The notes under the pieces are model-generated. The model did no database searches and had not been told where the DNA came from. It worked only from the letters and a program-made list of their open reading frames with translations. Positions 5,983 through 16,950 of a DNA stretch of 50,244 nt are shown here, one piece after another. The position numbers were made by a program, and so were the translations under genes. The number at the start of each line of letters is the position of its first letter. The first letter of the stretch is position 1. This DNA comes from Ralstonia sp. TCR112 (GTDB lineage Bacteria; Pseudomonadota; Gammaproteobacteria; Burkholderiales; Burkholderiaceae), in the NCBI RefSeq assembly GCF_007997035.1, contig NZ_VOSS01000053.1, positions 1-50,244 of the forward strand. Direction: 5' to 3'.

Positions 5983-7028
5983 GACTGCGCCCCTGCACGG
6001 CTGTGGCGTTGAAAGAGCATGCTGCGAAACGCCGGCGATTGCGCCAGGCACACGGCAAACACCACCACGGCTTTCACCACGAGGTTGATTTCCGGCGGCA
6101 CGCCCATGGAGTAGATCGCGTAGGTAAGCGTCTGGATGATGAGCGCGCCGATCACGCTGCCCCACAGGCTGAACTTGCCGCCCGCCAGCGAGGTACCGCC
6201 CAGCGTGACGGCCAGGATGGCGTCAAGCTCGAGCAGCAGCCCGGCGTTGTTGCCGTCCGCGCTCTTGACGTTGGAGCAGATGATGAGCCCCGCAACACCG
6301 GCCATGGCTCCGCAGAACGCGTAGATGCCAAACAGCAGCGCCTTGGTATTCAGCCCCGCAAGCCGCGCGGCCACGGGGTTGATGCCGACGGCCTCGATGA
6401 ACAGGCCCAGCGCCGTGCGATGCATCAACAGCAGCAACAGGCCGAGCACGGCGGCGGCGATGTACAGCCCGAACGGCAGGCCGAACAGATAGCCGTTGCC
6501 TACGAAGAAGAACGGCTCGTAGTAGACGGTGATGATCTGCCCGCCGGTAATGAGCTGCGCCACGCCGCGGCCGGCCACCATCAGGATCAGCGTGGCGATG
6601 ATGGGCTGCATGCCCGCCCCCGCCACCAGCAGGCCGTTCCACATGCCGCACACCAGCGCCGCGCCCACGGCCGCGAGCAGCGCCAGCAGCAGCGGCACCT
6701 TGGTCACGTAGACAGGCAGGCCGTTCTGCACGACCAGCGTGCCGCCGACAAGCGATGCCGCAATGGCGCCGGATATGGCGACCACCGCGCCCACCGAAAT
6801 ATCGATGCCGCCCACCGCAATCACCAGCGTCATGCCGAGCGAGACGAGCATCAGCGGCGCTGCGCGGTTGAGGATGTCGATCAGGCTGCCGTACAGATGC
6901 CCATTACGAACGTCGAGGTGAAAGAAATGCGGGTTGAACCACGCGTTGAGCAGACACAGCAGGAGCAGCGTCACGCCGGGCCAGAACAATCGGTGGCTGG
7001 TCAGTGCGCGCAGATTGGCGGGATTCAT
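5979..7028 (-). CDS. Sugar ABC transporter permease, YtfT type
   Basis: A 349-aa inner-membrane permease of the same family as its downstream partner. The hydrophobic core starts at about residue 15, with motifs AVGGIDISVGAVVAI near 85-99 and LLELDAILAVTLGGTSLAGG near 275. The start ATG (7026-7028) overlaps the stop of the ATPase gene as ATGA. The 71 codons that are open upstream encode a His/Arg-rich stretch antisense to nothing useful and are not part of the protein. It is the first of two non-identical permeases, as in the E. coli ytfQRT-yjfF operon. Confidence 0.85.
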   Translation of the reverse strand: MNPANLRALTSHRLFWPGVTLLLLCLLNAWFNPHFFHLDVRNGHLYGSLIDILNRAAPLMLVSLGMTLVIAVGGIDISVGAVVAISGAIAASLVGGTLVVQNGLPVYVTKVPLLLALLAAVGAALVCGMWNGLLVAGAGMQPIIATLILMVAGRGVAQLITGGQIITVYYEPFFFVGNGYLFGLPFGLYIAAAVLGLLLLLMHRTALGLFIEAVGINPVAARLAGLNTKALLFGIYAFCGAMAGVAGLIICSNVKSADGNNAGLLLELDAILAVTLGGTSLAGGKFSLWGSVIGALIIQTLTYAIYSMGVPPEINLVVKAVVVFAVCLAQSPAFRSMLFQRHSRAGAQS

Positions 7029-8614
7029 GCGGCGCCTCCGGTGGTGGTGGACTGGGTGTTGGACTGGCTGGCGGGCACGTCGCCGCCGGCAATCACGTGG
7101 CACAGGTTGTCTTCGGTCACATCGGCGCCGGCCAGCTCGCCCACCTTCTTGCGATCGCGCAGGATCGCCAGCCGGTGGCTTACGCGCAGCACCTCCGGCA
7201 GCTCGCTGGAGATGAACAGGATGGCCATGCCCTTGCGGCACTGCGCGGTCACCAGGTCCATGATGTCGAGCTTGGCGGCGATGTCGATGCCGCGCGTGGG
7301 CTCATCCAGGATCAGCATGGCGGGGTCGGTCGCCAGCCAGCGCGCGAGCACGGCCTTCTGCTGGTTGCCGCCCGAGAGCTGGCCGATGGGCTTTTCAGCG
7401 TCGGGCGTCTTGATGCCGAGCTGGGCGATGTACTGGTCGGCAATCTCACGCTGGCGCTTCTTGGGCAGATAGCGGAACAGGCCGCGCTTGGCCTGCAGCG
7501 CGAGGATGATGTTCTCGCGAATCGACAGCTCGGCAATGATGCCTTCGGTCTTGCGGTCTTCCGGGCAAAAGCCGATGCCCTGCCGGATGGCGTCACGCGG
7601 CGAGCTGAACTGGTGGGACTGGCCCTGCACGTTGATCGAGCCCGCATCGTTGCGGTCTACGCCGAACAGCAGGCGCGCGGTCTCGGTGCGGCCCGAACCC
7701 AGCAGGCCGCCCAGGCCCAACACCTGCCCGGGGCGGACGTCCAGATCGAGCGGCTGCACCACGCCACGGCGGCCCATGCCGCGCGCGCTCAGGAATGCCG
7801 GCGCCGTGTCGTCCACGGGCGGCACTTCGGTGCGCTCGAAACGGCTCGCATCAATGTCGCGCCCGACCATCTTGTTGATCAGTTGCAGCTGCGGCAGATC
7901 GCGCGCGGCGTATTCGCCTTCCAGCCGGCCATTGCGCAGCACGGTAATGCGGTCGGCAATCGCGTACGTCTGCTCCAGAAAATGCGTGACGAACAGCACG
8001 GCCATGCCGCGCGCCTTGAGCGTGCGGATGGCGGTAAACAGCCGGGCGACTTCATCGTCGTCCAGGCTTGAGGTGGGCTCGTCCAGGATCAGGATGCGGG
8101 CTTCGGTGGAGAGCGCGCGCGCAATCGCCACCATCTGCTGAATGGCGACCGGATACAGCGACAGCGGCAGCGTCACATCGATGTGGATGTTCAGATCCGC
8201 CAGCAGCGCCTGCGCCGCCCGGTTGGTGGCGCGCCAGTCGATGCTGCCCAGCCGCATGGGAAAGCGGCCGATGTGGATGTTCTCCGCCACGGTCAGGTTC
8301 GGGCAGAGATTGACCTCCTGATACACCGTGCTGATACCGAGCTTTTGCGCCTCCAGCGGCGAGCCCGGCGCGATGGGCTGACCGCCTAGCAGGATCTCGC
8401 CCGCATCCGGCGCTTCAACGCCGGTCAGCACTTTGATGAGCGTCGACTTGCCGGCACCGTTCTGCCCCATCAGGGCATGCACCTCACCGGGCAACAAGCG
8501 GAAATCGACCCCGGCCAGCGCCTGCACGCCGGGAAAGTTCTTGCAGATGCCGCGCATGTGCAGCAGCGCGCCGCGTGCATCTGTCGCGGCGGGTTGATCA
8601 ACGTGATCGGACAT
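7025..8614 (-). CDS. Sugar ABC transporter ATP-binding protein, YtfR type
   Basis: A 529-aa protein with two fused nucleotide-binding domains, typical of CUT2 sugar importers. The first domain has Walker A GQNGAGKST near residues 50-58 and LDEPTSSLD as Walker B. The second has the signature LSGGNQQK followed by [15 protein letters not shown]. As usual in this family the second domain lacks a perfect Walker A (GLLGSGRTE), so one ATP site is degenerate. I prefer the ATG at 8612-8614, which has AGGT seven bases upstream, to a GTG three codons earlier. It is separated from the binding-protein gene by 198 bases carrying a stem-loop. Confidence 0.9.
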   Translation of the reverse strand: MSDHVDQPAATDARGALLHMRGICKNFPGVQALAGVDFRLLPGEVHALMGQNGAGKSTLIKVLTGVEAPDAGEILLGGQPIAPGSPLEAQKLGISTVYQEVNLCPNLTVAENIHIGRFPMRLGSIDWRATNRAAQALLADLNIHIDVTLPLSLYPVAIQQMVAIARALSTEARILILDEPTSSLDDDEVARLFTAIRTLKARGMAVLFVTHFLEQTYAIADRITVLRNGRLEGEYAARDLPQLQLINKMVGRDIDASRFERTEVPPVDDTAPAFLSARGMGRRGVVQPLDLDVRPGQVLGLGGLLGSGRTETARLLFGVDRNDAGSINVQGQSHQFSSPRDAIRQGIGFCPEDRKTEGIIAELSIRENIILALQAKRGLFRYLPKKRQREIADQYIAQLGIKTPDAEKPIGQLSGGNQQKAVLARWLATDPAMLILDEPTRGIDIAAKLDIMDLVTAQCRKGMAILFISSELPEVLRVSHRLAILRDRKKVGELAGADVTEDNLCHVIAGGDVPASQSNTQSTTTGGAA

Positions 8615-8639
8615 GGGTGTCACCTGTTAACGTGGCGCA

Positions 8640-8675
8640 GCCGGCAGGCGAGTCACCGTAACCCGCGCTGCCGGC
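8640..8675 (-). repeat. Stem-loop between binding-protein and ATPase genes
   Basis: GCCGGCAG (8640-8647) and CTGCCGGC (8668-8675) are perfect 8-base inverted arms around a 20-base loop, in the gap between ytfQ and ytfR. No U run follows. In many importer operons such hairpins protect or attenuate the message so that the binding protein is made in excess. That role is inferred here. Confidence 0.5.
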
Positions 8676-8812
8676 ATGCTCCGAACCTGTTCATGATCCG
8701 TAGCGAGCGGCCCGAGGTTGGCAGGACGAGTTATCCAAACCGGCAGCCGTACATGGGTACGGCGAGCACGAGTTCGGCAAACCCGGTGTCAAGATCGGGC
8801 CGCGCAGCAGGA

Positions 8813-9802
8813 TCAGTACTTGCGGTTCGGGAACTCCTTGGCCGCCACCTCCATCGGGAAGATGCCTTCCTTGGTGACGATGCGCTTGGGCACGGCCTTG
8901 CCTGCCAGCACGTCGCGCGCGGTGTCCATCAGCTGCGGCCCGAGCAGCGGGCTGCATTCCACCGTCACGTTCAGCTTGCCGGCCATCATGGCTTCAAACG
9001 CGCCCTTCACGCCGTCGATGGAAATGATGGTGATGTCCTTGCCCGGTTTCAGCCCGGCTTCTTCAATGGCCTGGATGGCGCCGATGGCCATGTCGTCGTT
9101 ATGCGCAAACAGCACGTTGATCTTCTTGCCCTCGGCCTTCAGGAAGGCTTCCATCACTTCCTTGCCCTTGGCGCGGGTGAAGTCGCCGGTTTGCGAGCGG
9201 ATGATCTTGTAGTGCGGGTCGGCCTTGATGATCTCTTCAAACCCGCGCTTGCGATCGATGGCGGGTGCGGAGCCGACGGTGCCTTGCAGTTCGACGATGT
9301 TCACATCGCCGCCCTTGGGCTTGACGTTTTCAAGCAGCCAGCGGCCCGCCTTGCGGCCTTCCTCGACGAAATCCGAACCGATGAACGTGGTGTAGAGCGA
9401 GGTGTCTTTGCTGTCGATGCCGCGGTCGGTGAGGATGACCGGGATCTTGGCGGCCTTGGCCTCCTGCAGCACGGTGTCCCAGCCGGATTCCACCACCGGC
9501 GAGAACGCAATCACGTCGACCTTCTGCGCGATGTACGAGCGGATCGCCTTGATCTGGTTTTCCTGCTTCTGCTGCGCGTCGGAGAACTTCAGGTTCACGC
9601 CCTGCGCCTTGGCCGTCGATTTGATCGACTCCGAATTGGCGGTGCGCCATTCGCTCTCGGCACCCACCTGTGCGAAACCCATGGTGAACGACTTGTCGGC
9701 CGCGTGAGCCGCTGTCGTCAAGCCCGTGGCCAGCAGCACACCCGCGGTGGCCAGGAAGGTCAATACGGTCCGTCGCGCGCACGCAGCGCTCGTTTTTTTC
9801 AT
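8813..9802 (-). CDS. Periplasmic sugar-binding protein, YtfQ type
   Basis: A 329-aa type I periplasmic-binding protein. A Sec signal peptide spans residues 1-34 (basic start, hydrophobic core, cleavage after AAHA), followed by a Peripla_BP_4-like fold with FAQVGAESEWR near the new N-terminus, AFSPVVESGWD, LTDRGIDSKD and AHNDDMAIGAIQAIEEAG. These match the galactofuranose-binding YtfQ pattern, where the DRGID loop contacts the sugar. The start has GGAGAC five bases upstream. It is the first gene of the importer operon ytfQ-ytfR-ytfT-yjfF and should be the most abundant product. Aldohexofuranose or a related sugar is the most likely ligand; this is inference. Confidence 0.87.
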   Translation of the reverse strand: MKKTSAACARRTVLTFLATAGVLLATGLTTAAHAADKSFTMGFAQVGAESEWRTANSESIKSTAKAQGVNLKFSDAQQKQENQIKAIRSYIAQKVDVIAFSPVVESGWDTVLQEAKAAKIPVILTDRGIDSKDTSLYTTFIGSDFVEEGRKAGRWLLENVKPKGGDVNIVELQGTVGSAPAIDRKRGFEEIIKADPHYKIIRSQTGDFTRAKGKEVMEAFLKAEGKKINVLFAHNDDMAIGAIQAIEEAGLKPGKDITIISIDGVKGAFEAMMAGKLNVTVECSPLLGPQLMDTARDVLAGKAVPKRIVTKEGIFPMEVAAKEFPNRKY

Positions 9803-9983
9803 CGTTTGTCTCCGTTATGGTGGAACGCAGCCGGTCACTGCCCCCGGGGCTGCGCACGTCGTCTTTGCAACGCGATACACGAGTCGAATCCGGCATGCGG
9901 CGCCCGTCTTCCGCTGCCGACGATTCGTGGTGAGCCATGGTATGGACAGCCTGACATGACCGTCTAATGTTTTTTTGGGGGCC

Positions 9984-9997
9984 AACCGATATCGGTT
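9984..9997. promoter_or_regulatory. 14-bp perfect palindrome upstream of ytfQ
   Basis: AACCGATATCGGTT is a perfect palindrome located about 180 bases upstream of the ytfQ start and 77 bases beyond the stop of the regulator gene. GATATC recurs a few bases further on at 10000-10005. The position suits an operator controlling the importer operon. The binding protein is unknown. Confidence 0.5.
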
Positions 9998-10073
9998 TTG
10001 ATATCAGATGGCGTGTTTGCGCATCGTGCAGCGCACCAAAATCGCACACGGCTACGACCAGCCGTGCGGCCGC

Positions 10074-11009
10074 TCAGCCCGATTCGGCCAGCGATGCCGC
10101 CACGTGTGAAAACGCCACGCGCTGGCGCCGGAAGTCATTGGGCGACAGGCCCTGGCGGCGGCGGAACACCACCGCAAAATGGCTCGCGCTTTCGAAGCCC
10201 ACCGCGGTTGCGATCTCCAGGACGGACATGCGCGTCTCCGTCAGCAGACGGCTGGCAAGCTGCAGGCGGCGCTCGGTCACGTACTGGTGCGGCGTGCGGC
10301 CGCTGGCCTCTTTGAAGCTGCGGGCAAAGTGGTGAACGCTGAGGTCCGCAATATGGGCCATGTCGCGCACGCTGATGGGCTGCGTCACATTGGCTTCCAC
10401 AAACTCCATCACGCGGCGCAGGACATGCGCGGGCAACGACGCGCGCGTGGCGATCTCCTTGTTCCGCTGGGCGCTGTCGCGCGCCTCTTCCAGATGCGTG
10501 CAGGCGCGCACGATGATGCGCATGGCGCCGCCCATCACCGTGTCGTTCATCCACGCGCGGTCTGGCCTGGATGACGACAGGCTGCAGAAGACGATCCAGG
10601 TGGAGCGCGGCGTCATCTGATGGCGCAATGGCGCGCCCCAGACGATGCCGCTGTGCAGGTGGAAGCGGGCCAGATCCGCGAAGAAGGTTTCGACGCGGGG
10701 GTCGGTGTGCTCCGTGCCCACGCGTTCATGCAGATAAGGAATGTCCCACGCCAGGGGCAAGCCGCAGTCCCCTTGCAGCGCGATGCGCGGGTCGATCTCG
10801 AAATGGCGCTGCTCCAGATAGCGCTCTTCCCACCCGGCGGGGGAATTGGTGTTGTAGAGCACGCGTTGCTCGCCCCGCTGCTTGCCCGCCTCGCCGATGT
10901 ATTCCATCAGGCCAAACGAGAGCCACTCGAAGCCGACGTCGTGCATGGCTTGCCGCAACGTATCGGCAAAGCCGGCAGAAAAGTCTTGCAGGCGTGCGCC
11001 CAGATCCAT
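10074..11009 (-). CDS. AraC-type regulator with LuxR-type autoinducer-binding domain
   Basis: A 311-aa regulator with an unusual build. Residues about 15-170 look like an acyl-homoserine-lactone (AHL) binding domain of LuxR proteins, and residues about 195-297 are an AraC/XylS double helix-turn-helix (SVRDMAHIADLSVHHFARSF and SVLEIATAVGFESASHFAVV). Key AHL-pocket residues known from TraR appear with the same spacing: Trp60, Tyr64, Asp73, Pro74 and Trp88, followed by Gly121 in HSGI. There is no LuxR-type C-terminal helix-turn-helix. I start at the ATG 11007-11009; a GTG sits one codon earlier. It lies upstream of the ytfQRT-yjfF operon on the same strand and divergent from the GntR operon. The fusion suggests an AHL-like ligand driving AraC-type activation; the ligand is unknown. 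Confidence 0.8.
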   Translation of the reverse strand: MDLGARLQDFSAGFADTLRQAMHDVGFEWLSFGLMEYIGEAGKQRGEQRVLYNTNSPAGWEERYLEQRHFEIDPRIALQGDCGLPLAWDIPYLHERVGTEHTDPRVETFFADLARFHLHSGIVWGAPLRHQMTPRSTWIVFCSLSSSRPDRAWMNDTVMGGAMRIIVRACTHLEEARDSAQRNKEIATRASLPAHVLRRVMEFVEANVTQPISVRDMAHIADLSVHHFARSFKEASGRTPHQYVTERRLQLASRLLTETRMSVLEIATAVGFESASHFAVVFRRRQGLSPNDFRRQRVAFSHVAASLAESG

Positions 11010-11190
11010 CACCCGTATCCGTTGTTTTCGCGCGCCGTCTGAGGTGCGGCGCTCCGTGCATCAGATGTCGACCCGCGTGCGCCGCGCGCGGGCGCAAAAC
11101 GATCTCGCCACTATAGCGGCGGCTCGCGTCAAAAACCGAGCATGCATATCGAAAAAGCTTCGTTCCGCCGCATACCTCTGCTTTTTACAC

Positions 11191-11221
11191 TGGGCGCACT
11201 TGTTATGACGAGTTGCGCCCA
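11191..11221 (+). promoter_or_regulatory. HutC-like operator before the GntR gene
   Basis: Outer arms TGGGCGCA (11191-11198) and TGCGCCCA (11214-11221) are perfectly inverted. Nested inside is ACTTGT-TATG-ACGAGT (11198-11213), with arms matching at 5 of 6 positions. The inner part resembles the CTTGT...ACAAG class of sites used by HutC/UTRA-type GntR repressors. It ends 3 bases before the GntR start, so autoregulation of the whole operon is likely. Confidence 0.6.
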
Positions 11222-11224
11222 TCG

Positions 11225-12010
11225 ATGACCACCTCTAATTTGCACCGCCAGCCTGCCCCGCCGCTCTATGAGCGCATCAAGGGCACGCTGCGCGAGGGCA
11301 TTCTCAGCGGCCACTACGCGCCCGCCTCGCTGCTGCCTTCGGAGGCGGCGCTGGGCGAGCAGTTCAACGCCAGCCGCATCACCGTGCGCCAGGCGCTGGC
11401 CGATCTGCAGAACGAAGGGCTGATCTTCCGCCGCCACGGAAAGGGCACGTTCGTGAGCCAGCCGAAGGCCTTTCAGAACGTGACCGCGCTGCAGGGCTTT
11501 GCCGAGGCGATGTCGGCACAAGGTCACGCGATTCGCAATCGCGTGCTGATCCTGCGGACCGTCCCGGCGCCGACCGACGTGGCGCAAGCGCTGCAGCTGG
11601 CGCCCGGCACGGCCGTCGTGGAGTTGCATCGCGTGCGGTTGCTGGACCAGTCGCCCGTGTCGCTTGAGGTGACGTGGCTGCCGGAAGCACTGGGCAGCAT
11701 CGTCGCCCGGGCGGACCTCGTCACGCGCGATGTGTTTCTCGTGTTGGAGCAGGACGCGGGTGTGGCGCTGGGCCACGCGACGTTGGCCATCGATGCGGCA
11801 TTGGCCGATCACGCGACAGCCACCGCGCTCGACACGGGCGCAGGCGCGGCACTGCTGCGCGTAGAACGCCTGACGCACGACGCACAGGGCGCCCCCATCG
11901 ACTTCGAACGCCTTTATTTTCGCGGCGACGCCTTCCAGTACCGGCTTCGGCTGGATCGGCAGGTGGCGGCGCATGCGCAATCCATCCTTCCTTTGCAAGG
12001 CACCGTATGA
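11225..12010 (+). CDS. GntR family (HutC/UTRA) regulator
   Basis: A 261-aa transcriptional regulator with an N-terminal GntR winged helix (about residues 10-75, motifs LLPSEAALGEQFNASRITVRQAL and RRHGKGTFVS) and a C-terminal UTRA ligand-binding domain (about 95-250). I choose the ATG at 11225 over an upstream TTG at 11213 because the TTG lies in the operator. Ribosome-binding sequence is weak at both. The stop overlaps the start of the flavoprotein gene as ATGA, so the regulator is the first gene of the operon it probably controls. The effector is unknown; the operon context suggests an organosulfur compound. Confidence 0.88.
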   Translation: MTTSNLHRQPAPPLYERIKGTLREGILSGHYAPASLLPSEAALGEQFNASRITVRQALADLQNEGLIFRRHGKGTFVSQPKAFQNVTALQGFAEAMSAQGHAIRNRVLILRTVPAPTDVAQALQLAPGTAVVELHRVRLLDQSPVSLEVTWLPEALGSIVARADLVTRDVFLVLEQDAGVALGHATLAIDAALADHATATALDTGAGAALLRVERLTHDAQGAPIDFERLYFRGDAFQYRLRLDRQVAAHAQSILPLQGTV

Positions 12011-13731
12011 ATACGCTGGAACTGGAGTACGACCTCGTCGTCGTGGGCGGCGGCACGGCCGGCCCGATGGCGGCCATCAAGGCAAAAGAACGCAATCCCG
12101 CGTTGCGTGTGCTGCTGATCGACAAGGCGCATGTGAAGCGCAGCGGCGCGATCTCCATGGGCATGGACGGGCTGAACAACGCCGTCATTCCCGGGCATGC
12201 CACGCCCGAGCAATACACGCGCGAGATCACGCTGGCCAACGATGGCATCGTCGATCAATCGGGCGTGTATGCCTATGCGCAGCACAGTTTCGCCACCATC
12301 GAGCAGCTGGACCGCTGGGGCGTGAAGTTCGAGAAGGACGAAACCGGCGACTACGCCGTCAAGAAGGTCCATCACATGGGCAGCTACGTGCTGCCGATGC
12401 CAGAGGGGCACGACATCAAGAAGGTGCTGTACCGGCAGCTCAAGCGTGCGCGGGTGGAGATCACGAACCGCATCGTCGTCACGCGCGTGCTGACGGATGC
12501 CGATGGGGCCGCCTGCGGCGTGCTCGGCTTCGATTGCCGCACGGCGGATCTTCTCGTGGTGCGCGCCAAGGCCGTGGTGCTGAGCTGCGGCGCCGCCGGG
12601 CGGCTTGGCCTGCCGGCTTCCGGCTACCTGATGGGCACATACGAAAATCCCACCAACGCGGGCGATGGCTATGCGATGGCGTATCACGCGGGCGCGGAGC
12701 TTTCCAACCTGGAATGCTTCCAGATCAACCCACTCATCAAGGACTACAACGGCCCCGCCTGTGCGTATGTGACCGGCCCGCTGGGCGGCTACACCGCCAA
12801 CGCGCGCGGCGAGCGCTTCATCCAGTGCGACTACTGGAGCGGCCAGATGATGTGGGAGTTCTACCAGGAGCTGCAGGGCGGCAAGGGGCCGGTGTTTCTC
12901 AAGCTCGACCACCTGGCCGAAGAAACCATCCAGACCATCGAGACCATCCTGCACACCAACGAGCGCCCGAGCCGCGGCCGCTTCCACGCGGGGCGCGGCA
13001 CCGATTACCGCACGCAGATGGTGGAGATGCACATCTCGGAAATCGGCTTCTGCAGCGGGCACAGCGCGTCTGGCGTGTATGTGAATGCGCGCGCGGAAAC
13101 CACCGTGCCTGGCCTTTACGCGGCGGGCGACATGGCCGCCGTGCCGCACAACTACATGCTCGGCGCATTCACGTACGGCTGGTTTGCGGGGCAGAACGCG
13201 GCGGACTACATCGCCGGCCGGCAAGGCGACGCCCGCGTCGACGACGCGCAAATCGAACGCGAGCGCACGCGCATCTTTGCGCCGCTGCAACGCGATCATG
13301 GCCTCGCGCCTGCGCAAGTGGAATACAAGCTGCGCCGCATGGTGAACGATTACCTCCAGCCGCCCAAGGTCACGCGCAAGATGGAAATCGGCCTGCGGCG
13401 CTTCGACGAGATTGCCGAAGACATCACGCACCTGCACGCACGCAATCCGCATGAGCTGATGCGCGCGATGGAAGTCAGCTTCATCCGCGATTGCGCCGAG
13501 ATGGCCGCGCGCGCCTCGCTCTTCCGCACCGAAAGCCGCTGGGGCCTGTATCACCATCGCGTGGACTACCCCGAACGCGACGACGCCAATTGGTTCTGCC
13601 ACACACGCTTGTACAAGGACGCACACGGCGCCATGGCCAGCCGCAAGCAGGCCGTCGAGCCGTATGTCATCCCTGTCGATGTGCTCGGCACCGATTCCTA
13701 CGCGCACATGCGCATTCCGAAGGCTGCATGA
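12007..13731 (+). CDS. AprA-like FAD-dependent reductase, alpha subunit
   Basis: A 574-aa flavoprotein of the succinate dehydrogenase/fumarate reductase superfamily. The dinucleotide-binding motif VVGGGTAGPMAA lies at about 13-24. RSGAISMGMDGLN and the C-terminal stretch LFRTESRWGLYHHRVDYP...DDANWF resemble adenylylsulfate (APS) reductase AprA more than fumarate reductase. AprA normally interconverts APS with sulfite and AMP together with the ferredoxin-like AprB. Here the gene is linked to a short ferredoxin, a HEAT protein, a DUF971 protein and a sulfonate-type binding protein, not to dissimilatory sulfur genes, so the substrate is probably different. Start and stop overlap both neighbours (ATGA each), showing strong translational coupling. 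Catalytic role is inference. Confidence 0.83.
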   Translation: MNTLELEYDLVVVGGGTAGPMAAIKAKERNPALRVLLIDKAHVKRSGAISMGMDGLNNAVIPGHATPEQYTREITLANDGIVDQSGVYAYAQHSFATIEQLDRWGVKFEKDETGDYAVKKVHHMGSYVLPMPEGHDIKKVLYRQLKRARVEITNRIVVTRVLTDADGAACGVLGFDCRTADLLVVRAKAVVLSCGAAGRLGLPASGYLMGTYENPTNAGDGYAMAYHAGAELSNLECFQINPLIKDYNGPACAYVTGPLGGYTANARGERFIQCDYWSGQMMWEFYQELQGGKGPVFLKLDHLAEETIQTIETILHTNERPSRGRFHAGRGTDYRTQMVEMHISEIGFCSGHSASGVYVNARAETTVPGLYAAGDMAAVPHNYMLGAFTYGWFAGQNAADYIAGRQGDARVDDAQIERERTRIFAPLQRDHGLAPAQVEYKLRRMVNDYLQPPKVTRKMEIGLRRFDEIAEDITHLHARNPHELMRAMEVSFIRDCAEMAARASLFRTESRWGLYHHRVDYPERDDANWFCHTRLYKDAHGAMASRKQAVEPYVIPVDVLGTDSYAHMRIPKAA

Positions 13732-14000
13732 CCATGCAACAGACGACCGTTCATTTCGCCCACACGCCGCACGACATCACCTCGCGCAGCAGCGCGCCCG
13801 TCACCATCGACGAAGCCAAGTGCATTGCCGACAAGGGCTGCACCGTGTGTGTCGATGTCTGCCCGCTCGACCTGCTCGCCATCGACCTGACCAAAGGCAA
13901 GGCTTTCATGCAATTCGACGAATGCTGGTACTGCATGCCGTGCGAGCAGGATTGCCCGACCGGCGCGGTGAAGGTCGACATCCCGTATCTGCTGCGCTGA
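13728..14000 (+). CDS. 8-Cys ferredoxin, AprB-like subunit
   Basis: A 90-aa protein with two [4Fe-4S] cluster motifs: Cys32, Cys38, Cys41, Cys45 (CIADKGCTVCVDVCP) and Cys66, Cys69, Cys72, Cys76 (CWYCMPCEQDCP). The widened first spacing resembles AprB, but the C-terminal tail of classic AprB is missing and the protein is much shorter. It overlaps the flavoprotein stop as ATGA and should be its electron-transfer partner in the cytosol. A second in-frame ATG two codons later is possible. Confidence 0.9.
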   Translation: MTMQQTTVHFAHTPHDITSRSSAPVTIDEAKCIADKGCTVCVDVCPLDLLAIDLTKGKAFMQFDECWYCMPCEQDCPTGAVKVDIPYLLR

Positions 14001-14007
14001 GGCCGCG

Positions 14008-14967
14008 ATGACGACAACCCTCCTGGCGCGCCTGCACGACGCGGACGCCGCCACCCGCCGCGTCGCCCTCCTCCAGCTTGCCGATGCGGAAGACGCCGAC
14101 GCGCTGCCCGATGTGATTGCGCTGCTGGCGCAGGACCCGGCGCCGGAAATCCGGCTGGAAGCCGCGCGCATCCTGGCGACCTGGGAACAGCCGGACACCG
14201 TGGCCGCCCTTGCCCGTGCACTGGAAGACGTGGATGGCACCGTACGTGACGCGGCGGCAATCGGCCTGGCGGATTTGAAATCGCCCGACTCGGCGCCCGC
14301 GCTGTTGCCTTACGTCGACCATGCCAGCGCCTTTGTGCGCGCCGCCGCGTTGCGCGGGTTGCGTGAGCTTCGCGTGCCCGAGAGCGAAGCGCCCGCGCTG
14401 CACGCGCTGCAAGACGCTAACGCCGCCGTACGCCGCGAGGCCGTTGCGGTGCTCGGCTGGCGCAAGCATGTGGGTGCATTGCCCGCGCTGGCGGAACGCG
14501 CACGTCATGACGCAGATGTCGACGTGCGCCGTGCCGCAGTCGGCGCCCTCGGCCTCGCCACCGATGCCGCTGTGCTGCCCGCGCTGCTCGCTGCGCTGCA
14601 TGACACCGCCTGGCGCGTGCGCGAGGAGAGTGCCAGCACGCTCGGCAAGTTGCGGGCGCTTGCTCCCGATGCGCGTGTCACGCAGGCGTTGGTCGAGGCG
14701 CTGGCCGACGCGTATTGGCAAGTCCGCTTGCAGGCCGCCCGGGCGCTCGGCCGGTGGCGCGCTGCGCATGCCGTCGATGCGCTCGCCGCGCTGCTCACGC
14801 ACCCGATCAGCAATCTGCGCAAGGAAGCCGCGCTCGCCTTGGGCGAAATCGGCGAAGCCTCTGCCCTGCCCGCCCTGCGCAGCGCAGAAACCGACGGCGA
14901 CCCGGAAGTCGTCAAGGCGGTGCGGATTGCCTTGGCACAAATCGAGAGCGCCCGTGCAACCCCCTGA
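14008..14967 (+). CDS. HEAT-repeat (PBS-lyase-like) protein
   Basis: A 319-aa all-helical repeat protein, with about nine HEAT/PBS-lyase type repeats of roughly 30 residues each, seen as recurring patterns such as DVRRAAVGALG, RVREESASTLGKL, QVRLQAARALGRW and NLRKEAALALGEIG. No signal peptide or catalytic motif was seen. Related repeats act as scaffolds or in cofactor attachment (phycobilin lyases), so a role in assembly or maturation of the flavoprotein-ferredoxin complex is a reasonable guess but not shown. It starts 7 bases after the ferredoxin and its 3' end overlaps the DUF971 gene by 14 bases. Confidence 0.85.
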   Translation: MTTTLLARLHDADAATRRVALLQLADAEDADALPDVIALLAQDPAPEIRLEAARILATWEQPDTVAALARALEDVDGTVRDAAAIGLADLKSPDSAPALLPYVDHASAFVRAAALRGLRELRVPESEAPALHALQDANAAVRREAVAVLGWRKHVGALPALAERARHDADVDVRRAAVGALGLATDAAVLPALLAALHDTAWRVREESASTLGKLRALAPDARVTQALVEALADAYWQVRLQAARALGRWRAAHAVDALAALLTHPISNLRKEAALALGEIGEASALPALRSAETDGDPEVVKAVRIALAQIESARATP

Positions 14968-15247
14968 GCGCATCGACAACGACGTCGCACAGGGCCGGCT
15001 GCGGCTGCACTGGGCAGACGCCGTGGTCGCACTCGACCACGCCGCATTGCGCGAGGCGTGCCGCTGCGCGGAGTGCCAGTTCAAGCGCCATCACGGCACG
15101 CCGATCAACGTGCCGGCCGCCGTGCGCGTCACCACCATCGCGCCCGCGGGTTACGGCGTGCAACTGGTGTTCAGTGATGGCCATGCGCGCGGCATCTATC
15201 CGTGGGCGTATCTGGCGGAGCTTGCCGCTACTGCAGCACCGGGCTGA
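14954..15247 (+). CDS. DUF971 (GBBH-like N-terminal domain) protein
   Basis: A 97-aa protein starting at a GTG inside the end of the HEAT gene, preceded by GAGAG. It matches the DUF971 / gamma-butyrobetaine-hydroxylase N-terminal-like family: LRLHWADAV at the start, a Cys-rich CRCAEC (Cys36, Cys38, Cys41) followed by His46/His47, and the ending DGHARGIYPWAYL. In related proteins such Cys and His residues bind zinc. Stand-alone members are often found near iron-sulfur or sulfur-metabolism genes. Its exact function is unknown; in this operon a structural or metal-delivery role is possible. Confidence 0.8.
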   Translation: MQPPERIDNDVAQGRLRLHWADAVVALDHAALREACRCAECQFKRHHGTPINVPAAVRVTTIAPAGYGVQLVFSDGHARGIYPWAYLAELAATAAPG

Positions 15248-15344
15248 CGTTGGCGGCGTCTATGCACATGCAATCTTGTTCGTTCCTTCGCGCGTGCGCG
15301 GTCCGTAGCATCGACCGCACAACACCTGACTCGCTGGAGGAATC

Positions 15345-16336
15345 ATGCAAACCCAGTCGCCCCATACCGCCGCATCGTTTGGCCGACGACGCTGGCTTGC
15401 CGCGCTGCTGGGCGCCGGCCTCGCCCTGAGCGCAGGGCTCACCCAAGCCGCAGACCCGGCCGGCACGGTGCGCGTCGGCTTTCAGAAAGCGGGGCTGCTG
15501 GCCGTGCTGAAAGCGCAAGGCTCACTCGACAAACCGCTGGCCGAGCTTGGCTACAAGGTGGAATGGAAGGAATTCCCTGCCGGGCCGCAACTGCTGGAGG
15601 CACTCAACACGGGCAGCATTGACTTCGGCTACACCGGCGCGCGCCGGCCGTGTTTGCGCAGGCTGCAGGCGCGCGCCTTGTCTACGTGGGGGCCGAGCCC
15701 GGCGGCAAGACCAACGAGGCGCTGTTCGTGCTGGACAGCTCACCCGCGCACAGCGTGGCGGACCTTAAAGGTAAGCGCATTGCACTGCAGAAGGGCTCCA
15801 GCTCCAACTATCTGCTAGTGCAACTGCTTCGGCGCGCCAACCTCACGGTGCAGGACATTCAGCCGATCTACCTGCCGCCGGCCGAGGCGCGGGCCGCCCT
15901 CGAGAGCGGCGCGGTCGATGCGTGGGTCGTATGGGATCCGTATTACGCGCTGGCACAGAAGGCGTTGAAGACGCGCACGCTGGGTGATTTCAGCGAGTTG
16001 CCGGTGTTCAACTTCTACGAAGCCACCCCGGAATTCGTGAAGACGCATCCGCGCGCGGTCAACGCCATCCTGGCCCAGTTGCGTACGGCGGGGCTATGGG
16101 TGAATCAGCATCCGCAGGAGACTGCCGCCCTGCTGGCGCCCAAGCTCGGCATCGAACAGCCCGTTGTCGAAACCTGGCTGCGCCGCGTGCCCTACGGCGT
16201 CACGCCGGTCACACCGCAGATCGTGGCTTCGCAGCAGCAGATTGCAGACCTGTTCCTGCAGCAGAAGCTGATTCCGAAACCGGTGAACATGCAAAGCGCT
16301 GTCTGGCAGGCGAGCTTCCCTGTAGCTGGATTGTGA
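15345..16336 (+). pseudogene. Aliphatic sulfonate-type ABC binding protein, frameshifted
   Basis: The two halves together give an SsuA-like periplasmic binding protein of about 330 aa. A twin-arginine-like signal peptide (GRRRWLAAL... cleaved near TQAA) is followed by VRVGFQKAGLLAVLKAQG, FGYTG, then after the break VFAQAAGARLVYVGAEPGG and WDPYYA. One base is missing between 15639 and 15640; restoring an A gives FGYTGDAPAVFAQ, the normal binding motif of the family. The reading frame otherwise stops at 15818. The loss may be a sequencing error. It is the last gene of the AprA-like operon (about 100 bp gap) and lacks its own ATPase and permease here, so it may use a channel encoded elsewhere. 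Confidence 0.8.
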
Positions 16337-16386
16337 GCCGCTAGCGGCCGCGCGCGGTGCGGCACCCGTGAACGGCCTCTCATCGG

Positions 16387-16950
16387 TCAGAAATTGCCGA
16401 AGCGGCCAATCCACGCGGCGGCGCCTTTGCTATGCCCCTTGATTGCCGCGTCCAGTTCAGCGCGAGTCAGCCCATTGGGCAACGCGTCCGGCGCCAGATC
16501 CGTCGCGATCAGCACAAAGACGTAGTGGTGCATGCCCGTGCCCTTGGGCGGACACGGCCCCAGATACGCCGGCTTGTCGATGGCGTTCTGGCCCATGCGC
16601 AAGGCACTGCCCGTGCCGGCGCCTTCCGGCAGGCTCGTCTGCGTAGCGGGAATGCCGTAAGCCATCCAGTGGTTCACGCCCAGGCCGCCTGCGCCCTGCG
16701 GGTCGGTGGCAATCAGAACGAGGCTGCTGGTGCCGGCCGGAACGTTCGACCAGTGCAGCGGCGGCGAGACGTTGTCGCCCGTGCAATTGGCGTTGGCGGG
16801 GTTCTTCCCGGCGTATTTGCGGTCCATGACGCCGTTGTCGGCAAAGGCGGGCGATTCGACGGTGAACGTGGTATCGGCCTGCGCATGCACCTGCGGCACG
16901 GCAGACAGGCACGCCAGCGACAACAACGCGCGAAACAAGGTGGGTTTCAA
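16387..16950 (-). CDS. PEBP (YbhB/YbcL) family secreted protein
   Basis: A 187-aa phosphatidylethanolamine-binding-protein family member of the bacterial YbhB/YbcL type. Conserved ligand-pocket parts are NVSPPLHWSNVP, LIATDPQG, VNHWMAYGIPA, GPCPPKGTGMHHYVFVL. A signal peptide (about residues 1-24, ending VHAQA) points to the periplasm, unlike cytosolic YbhB. I choose a TTG start (16948-16950) because GAGGAG lies seven bases upstream. The longer open frame runs antisense through the divergent yggT start. Function in bacteria is not established; a lipid- or small-ligand-binding role is typical. Confidence 0.82.
   Translation of the reverse strand: MKPTLFRALLSLACLSAVPQVHAQADTTFTVESPAFADNGVMDRKYAGKNPANANCTGDNVSPPLHWSNVPAGTSSLVLIATDPQGAGGLGVNHWMAYGIPATQTSLPEGAGTGSALRMGQNAIDKPAYLGPCPPKGTGMHHYVFVLIATDLAPDALPNGLTRAELDAAIKGHSKGAAAWIGRFGNF

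Follow-up and report, generated by a model that had tools for sequence, protein, structure and literature searches.

The DNA analysed here (the window) comprises positions 1–50,244 of contig NZ_VOSS01000053.1 from Ralstonia sp. TCR112, the genome of which is a draft of 5.4 Mb in 292 contigs (the window contig is C242 of genome G000 in our set). It contains a compact operon encoding a GntR/UTRA regulator, a flavin adenine dinucleotide (FAD) flavoprotein, an AprB-like ferredoxin, a HEAT-repeat protein and a DUF971 protein. The operator and the five genes together span 11198–15247, and the genes alone 11225–15247. The best supported reading of this operon is an organosulfur reductase. The features are as follows.

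11198–11213, no strand assigned: operator palindrome ACTTGT-TATG-ACGAGT, directly ahead of the GntR start codon
11225–12010 (ATG; alternative TTG at 11213), plus strand: GntR/UTRA (HutC-like) regulator, most likely a local repressor (PF00392, 74.6 bits; PF07702, 123.4 bits)
12007–13731, plus strand: FAD flavoprotein of the PRK08275/NF006131 family, 574 residues, presumed catalytic subunit (NF006131, 1124.4 bits)
13728–14000 (possible alternative ATG at 13734), plus strand: AprB-like ferredoxin with two [4Fe-4S] motifs, presumed electron-transfer subunit (Fer4 models)
14008–14967, plus strand: HEAT-repeat protein, 319 residues (HEAT_2, 204.8 bits; NF010374 positions 609–895, 73.5 bits)
14954–15247 (GTG start), plus strand: DUF971 (GBBH-like N) protein with a CRCAEC motif (PF06155, 71.6 bits)
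15345–16336, plus strand: SsuA-like sulfonate-binding protein gene, frameshifted near 15.64 kb, a neighbour outside the conserved operon (both pieces match SsuA models)

The five genes are tightly linked: ATGA overlaps join GntR to the flavoprotein and the flavoprotein to the ferredoxin, the ferredoxin and HEAT genes are 7 bp apart, and the HEAT and DUF971 genes overlap by 14 bp. A preliminary description of this locus had counted the SsuA-like gene as the sixth member of the operon. The linkage of the five stands, but the sixth gene falls away, as it starts 97 bp 3' of DUF971, is frameshifted and is not conserved. Among the six nearest Ralstonia-type loci (one of which, L013, comes from a Burkholderiaceae bacterium), the gene has an intact frame in two, L012 and L014. 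No match to it was found in L011, L013, L015 and L016, where the DNA found 3' of the SsuA-like gene in the window directly adjoins DUF971. The frameshift may reflect true decay or an assembly error.

The operon is real and widely spread. The flavoprotein scores over its family cut-off in 14 of 15 same-genus genomes and is found in 21 of 398 Pseudomonadota genomes sampled evenly (the window's own genome counted); a sample of one further class held a match in 3 of 289 genomes, and 53 plasmid records match, cyanobacterial and actinobacterial ones among them. We examined 118 loci, every one picked for holding the flavoprotein, and used kinship labels together with gene order to sort them into 6 Ralstonia-type, 64 other beta-type, 25 Pseudomonas/Acinetobacter-type, 17 alphaproteobacterial-type, 1 Acidithiobacillus, 3 cyanobacterial and 2 actinobacterial. 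Loci L011–L090, taken as the best 80 of 591 matches, are weighted towards Burkholderiaceae and Pseudomonas. Counts for the beta-type and Pseudomonas groups are therefore not independent, and some loci end at contig edges, which makes absences there soft. The core set, whose conserved order the preliminary description had proposed as a check, is kept far outside the genus, with the ferredoxin gene in 118/118 loci, a separate HEAT gene in 115/118, DUF971 in 98/118 and Mrp in 3/118. The sole Pseudomonas-type locus that lacks HEAT (L086) lies on a contig that stops about 2 kb past the ferredoxin, and the two actinobacterial loci encode a long flavoprotein of the HEAT-fused type (annotated with 893 residues in L119; an open frame of 940 residues in L120), the nearest database proteins of the L119 form carrying HEAT domains. 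The set has relatives in three phyla (proteobacteria, cyanobacteria and actinobacteria), and in 12 records from these groups the flavoprotein is 59–83% identical to the window copy.

The palindrome ahead of the operon, which had been described as a HutC-like operator, recurs in the same place in most of these loci. Its core, CTTGT-N4-ACAAG, came first from a blind count of palindromic words: the perfect core is present in 58 of 96 upstream regions, no such word exceeded 3 in the 20 shuffles, and the window's own operator has one mismatch to it. Of 95 loci, 91 carry the longer form ACTTGT-N4-ACAAGT ahead of GntR with no more than three mismatches (none in 15, one in 61, two in 12 and three in 3) and 4 have no site, compared with 57 of 900 shuffled regions that hold one. 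The window site is the sole mismatch-free copy of ACTTGTNNNNACNAGT in its own genome. The regulon search in that genome gave five other one-mismatch places, fewer than the control pattern (17 and 12), and in six relatives the site counts were at or near control (for example 10 versus 12 and 3 versus 2), with zero sites at one mismatch in one of the six; these site searches yielded no clue to the substrate. Because the mismatch-free site occurs only before this operon and one-mismatch places fall below control, these sequences suggest that GntR is most likely a local autorepressor, which would repress the operon through its own operator. The regulator scores 142.7 bits against HutC (TIGR02018), under the cut-off of 220, and so lies outside that family. 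In the alphaproteobacterial-type loci a Crp-type gene is present in 15/17 and a GntR match in 1/17. No sigma-70-like site was found in a promoter scan of 11000–16500, and the same interval holds 5 terminator-like sites, with 4.2 expected.

The flavoprotein belongs to NF006131 (PRK08275), scoring 1124.4 bits over residues 1–573 against a cut-off of 587. It falls far below the cut-off for AprA (TIGR02061, 188.6 of 641.75 bits) and also below those for PRK06854 (292.2 of 557), TIGR01812 (175.2 of 567.3) and fumarate reductase (TIGR01176, 142.3 of 932.7). The fused chain modelled by PRK13800 (NF010374, cut-off 1196) is divided over two genes in the window, which score 885.4 and 73.5 bits, the HEAT protein matching the C-terminal part of the model. 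The ferredoxin scores 36.4 bits against AprB (TIGR02060, cut-off 135.65) over model positions 3–64 of 132, and its eight cluster cysteines are invariant in 13 of 13 aligned copies. The best solved relative, by sequence and by Foldseek on the model, is 8a8o, the PAPS (3'-phosphoadenosine 5'-phosphosulfate) reductase of Methanothermococcus (MtPAPSR). Both AlphaFold models are weak (mean predicted local distance difference test scores of 61.6 and 62.1), so we take only kinship of fold from them.

A tree of 40 rows unites the 25 family members (94/98) and sets them apart from AprA with MtPAPSR (100/100) and from three rows taken as SdhA and NadB. The branches are long and the joins between groups unsure. 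The phylogenetic check proposed earlier therefore separates the flavoprotein from the rows that we assume to be succinate dehydrogenase and aspartate oxidase, while fumarate reductase, which was not among the rows, was compared by family score and by fold only. A further AprA-like flavoprotein, encoded at L168 (genome G034, contig C19), scores 299.7 bits to NF006131, under the cut-off, and sits on a very long branch apart from both the window family and AprA.

The active-site columns differ from those of the characterized enzymes. An arginine found in 8/8 AprA rows and in MtPAPSR, which we take to be the sulfate-site Arg265 of A. fulgidus with a catalytic role, is Leu243 in 25/25 family members, and Gln145 of A. 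fulgidus AprA is not kept in the family. Asn57 is common to the family, AprA and MtPAPSR, and His352 to the family and all AprA, SdhA and NadB rows. Set against two SdhA-type rows, the family rows shown have PHNYMLG or PHNYMIG in place of the SdhA motif HGANRLG, the arginine of which presumably binds dicarboxylate. Four cysteines (Cys237, Cys252, Cys349 and Cys496) are present in 25/25 family rows and in none of the 8 AprA, 1 MtPAPSR, 2 SdhA-type, 1 NadB-type and 3 G034 rows. The available part of the MtPAPSR report gives Lys120, Arg121 and Ser122 as its PAPS-specificity residues (PMC10322725); these positions are Ser-Tyr-Val in the window protein, with Tyr and Val in 25/25. Since it lacks the AprA/PAPS reductase arginine and the succinate dehydrogenase arginine and has four invariant cysteines that those enzymes do not share, the flavoprotein is most likely neither an APS (adenosine 5'-phosphosulfate)/PAPS reductase nor a fumarate reductase. 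We rejected APS/PAPS reductase on scores, tree and active-site columns, fumarate reductase/succinate dehydrogenase on the same grounds (the tree covering the latter enzyme), and aspartate oxidase on score and tree. The label 'AprA-like' given to the protein earlier thus describes its fold and not its function, and we conclude that flavoprotein and ferredoxin probably form an electron-transfer enzyme of the AprBA type with a different substrate.

MtPAPSR, from Methanothermococcus thermolithotrophicus, has the same design, namely an FAD alpha subunit of the fumarate-reductase family with a small beta subunit carrying two [4Fe-4S] clusters, as far as the available text of its report goes (PMC10322725). 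The window enzyme differs from it by Leu243, by the loss of the specificity residues, by the four extra cysteines and by its gene partners. With dissimilatory AprAB it shares the fold, the subunit pair and the Asn57 and His352 columns (the latter also in the SdhA and NadB rows), but it forms a separate group far below both cut-offs, has changed Arg and Gln145 columns and a short ferredoxin. PRK08275, to which the window flavoprotein belongs, and PRK13800, which models the HEAT-fused form, are named after succinate/fumarate enzymes only, and our literature search found no substrate for either.

MMS19 is a HEAT adaptor, and by analogy the HEAT protein of the operon may act as an MMS19-like adaptor. 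In 3/3 cyanobacterial loci an Mrp/NBP35 carrier lies 3' of HEAT in the place of DUF971 (PF10609, 324 bits in L116). The CRCAEC motif of the window DUF971 protein fits the C[R,S]CAxC motif (C-x-C-A-x-C) reported for the C-terminal DUF971 domain of HCF101, a plastid Fe–S carrier, and the accessible portion of that report calls the role of the domain elusive (PMC7980591). Unlike HCF101 and Mrp/NBP35, the window DUF971 protein stands alone, without a P-loop ATPase, and its role is putative. The operon offers a testable bacterial case for this domain.

Other partner genes recur beside the set. A gene for an importer binding protein of the SsuA/TauA type is present in 77/118 loci: among proteobacteria in 0/6 Ralstonia-type, 33/64 other beta-type, 25/25 Pseudomonas/Acinetobacter-type, 15/17 alphaproteobacterial-type and 0/1 Acidithiobacillus loci, and elsewhere in 2/3 cyanobacterial and 2/2 actinobacterial ones. 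This protein of about 475 residues has TauA (93.9 bits) and SsuA (84.9 bits) as its nearest profiles, and a weak model points to the same two. According to the part of PMC6906117 available, Glu106 and Asp205 of TauA bind the taurine amine; Gln30 and Gly61 belong to the sulfonate site. Mapped on that description, Gly61 is kept in 11/11 copies and a Gln fits Gln30 by motif in 11/11, a match made by eye because Gln30 lies outside the aligned stretch, while the amine-binding Glu106 and Asp205 are replaced by Asn and His in 11/11 (the numbering offset is our own). The same protein joins its SsuA/TauA-type domain to a NosL-like domain in the last 100 residues (for example, L111 11020–12450). Against PF05573 (NosL), the binding proteins scored over the cut-off in 3/7 and under it in 3/7, with no match in the actinobacterial one; among cut pieces 3/4 were over the cut-off, and the model resembles the structures 7og7 and 7znq. 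We take NosL to be a copper chaperone, but Cys and Met are rare in this domain, so a copper site is not expected. We know of no sulfonate importer or other described case that combines an SsuA/TauA domain with a NosL-like one.

Genes for ferredoxin–NADP reductase (FNR), FdxA and YeiH accompany the set in 11/118, 8/118 and 9/118 loci, mostly alphaproteobacterial-type and cyanobacterial; in the alphaproteobacterial-type loci FNR stands beside it in 10/17 and FdxA in 5/17. L007, L116 and L117 have annotated TauE-type genes, and a threshold scan picked up such a gene at one beta-type and one cyanobacterial locus. YeiH, GntR, flavoprotein, ferredoxin, HEAT, FdxA, importer, DUF971 and FNR all occur together at L173, which belongs to another family of the window's order. 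A Rhodococcus wratislaviensis protein is labelled 'Putative reductase (alkanesulfonate metabolism)' by one source. The 45 largest clusters of neighbouring genes, part of which were identified, contain no further enzyme common across lineages (the open reading frame caller used also took antisense frames). Sulfonate-type importer and sulfite/sulfate-exporter-type genes thus accompany the set in part of the loci, in keeping with the organosulfur reading of the preliminary description, while the window's own SsuA-like gene, broken and not conserved among relatives, has to be dropped as evidence for a sulfonate. The binding protein of about 475 residues is better evidence of that kind, though absent from the six Ralstonia-type loci.

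We tentatively propose, with a confidence that stops a little short of even, that the operon encodes a ferredoxin-driven reductase which releases sulfite from a non-amino sulfonate taken up by the cell, and that HEAT and DUF971/Mrp are its Fe–S maturation partners. The flavoprotein and the short ferredoxin would form an AprBA-type alpha–beta enzyme, in which electrons from reduced ferredoxin (supplied in some relatives through the FNR and FdxA genes next door) would pass over the two [4Fe-4S] clusters to the FAD. The FAD would then reduce the imported compound, of sulfonate type and lacking an amino group, with release of sulfite for cysteine synthesis, surplus sulfite being exported in lineages with YeiH or TauE-type genes. 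HEAT and DUF971, or Mrp/NBP35 at that position in cyanobacteria, would serve as a dedicated Fe–S maturation or docking module. We infer the reductive direction from the FNR and FdxA genes in part of the loci. The substrate is suggested by gene company and by an importer that is missing from the window's own genus; uptake in Ralstonia must therefore use another transporter. The window genome also encodes an SsuD that scores over the cut-off and, side by side, two PF01507 proteins (CysH/CysD type); it can hence probably use sulfate and alkanesulfonates by known routes, to which the operon would add. With the two PF01507 genes in place, a replacement of CysH seems unlikely. These genes, and the exporter genes of some relatives, which would suit a larger flux, make the 'assimilatory' role given in the preliminary description tentative.

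To our knowledge, the aerobic routes from sulfonates to sulfite (SsuD, TauD and MsuD) all use oxygen. The nearest functional precedent we found is the isethionate reductase IsrHDK of Rhodobacter capsulatus, for which the available part of its report proposes that a sulfonate enters by SsuABC-type uptake and undergoes reductive C–S cleavage to yield sulfite (PMC11423573). IsrHDK is nitrogenase-like, from an unrelated protein family, and was shown by mutants in anaerobic growth. A search among open-licence papers found no description of this operon or family, nor do the parts of PMC8305402 and PMC10128140 that were available mention the operon, in line with the earlier statement that no characterized pathway has this set. 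If confirmed, a reductive flavoenzyme with a fixed gene set would be a further step in the sulfur cycle, and a family that appears in databases only under succinate/fumarate enzyme names would gain a function. A wider claim, which we regard as doubtful, is that these operons represent a widespread and so far undescribed class of ferredoxin-driven flavoenzymes marked by reductive sulfonate cleavage in aerobes and cyanobacteria, a Cys-rich flavin chemistry in the AprA fold, a HEAT and DUF971/Mrp maturation pair of its own, paralleling eukaryotic MMS19/NBP35 and HCF101, and an importer with a NosL-like domain in its binding protein.

Several observations weigh against the proposed sulfonate reductase. 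The importer binding protein reaches 112.3 bits where the SsuA cut-off is 163.5, and NMT1-fold proteins also bind nitrate, bicarbonate, pyrimidines and pyrroloquinoline quinone. In 6/6 Ralstonia-type and 31/64 other beta-type loci the stretch examined showed no gene for the importer binding protein; the enzyme set thus often lacks a transporter of its own, and the best match to the protein in the window's genome is 29% identical over partial length. FNR, FdxA and YeiH are missing from most loci, and the YeiH of L116, although over the Pfam cut-off, reaches 219.9 bits, just below the NCBIfam cut-off of 232.6. Of 7 aligned DUF971 copies, two are devoid of Cys and one more is without the motif, which weakens the case for a metal role. 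SsuD is already in the genome, and flavin-driven reductive C–S cleavage would need a poor leaving group. That last difficulty would be eased if the same enzyme reduced another sulfur oxyanion compound, such as sulfamate, an S-sulfo thiol, thiosulfate or a sulfate ester, cleaving an N–S, S–S or O–S bond and likewise giving sulfite. The leaving group would be better and the chemistry nearer that of APS reductase, the kin AprA and MtPAPSR free sulfite from APS or PAPS through FAD, and exporter-type genes lie close by in some loci. The binding protein is nearest sulfonate binders, and the arginine of AprA and MtPAPSR is Leu in every family member, so we rate this alternative as unlikely.

About as unlikely is a non-sulfur substrate, some other small anion or cofactor brought in by the importer and reduced in the way unsaturated acids are in the fumarate-reductase superfamily. 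The many ligands of NMT1-fold proteins, the binding protein's place under the SsuA cut-off and its NosL-like domain, for which we recall no parallel in a sulfonate importer, would suit it, but it leaves aside the YeiH and TauE-type genes of cyanobacterial and some other loci, the sulfonate-site Gln and Gly kept in 11/11 copies and the missing dicarboxylate-binding Arg motif. The complex could also be an electron-transfer module or an oxidative enzyme (for example, in sulfite handling) that serves the oxygenases beside some copies, flavin mononucleotide monooxygenases and Rieske proteins. A DmoA/NtaA-type monooxygenase gene is present in 8/64 beta-type loci and a Rieske protein gene in L006; no oxygenase recurs across lineages among the clusters looked at, and the FNR and FdxA genes of the alphaproteobacterial-type loci argue that electrons flow in, which makes this improbable. 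Least probable by far is an assimilatory APS or PAPS reductase like the Methanothermococcus enzyme: among solved structures 8a8o comes first by sequence and model, yet the AprA and PRK06854 scores, the separate tree group, the Arg to Leu change, the loss of Gln145 and of the Lys120/Arg121/Ser122 residues and the CysH/CysD-type genes of the genome all speak against it. The organosulfur reductase advanced in the preliminary description, an uncharacterized enzyme, remains the best reading.

Some loci have further genes around the operon. On a Nostoc edaphicum plasmid (L118 886–18426), two HAD hydrolases, a methyltransferase, acetyltransferases, a FosA-like VOC protein and an amidase are encoded in or near it and two sulfonate-binding proteins upstream of it, company that may point to a more complex sulfonated substrate. 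On the Acidithiobacillus caldus plasmid pTcM1 (L112 10102–14035), the operon is followed by fdxA and a gene for an FAD oxidoreductase of 1153 residues, kin of the glutamate synthase beta type, which may replace FNR as the electron source. Genes for a GNAT acetyltransferase and an amidase lie beside the operon in both Methylocystis (L113 11931–14116) and Nostoc (L118 16579–18426). In the window itself, the minus strand upstream of the operon (7025–11012) carries open frames that, read by eye, resemble a sugar-type ABC importer and an AraC-type regulator.

7025–8623, minus strand: sugar-type importer ATPase
8813–9802, minus strand: binding protein of the importer
10074–11012, minus strand: AraC-type regulator

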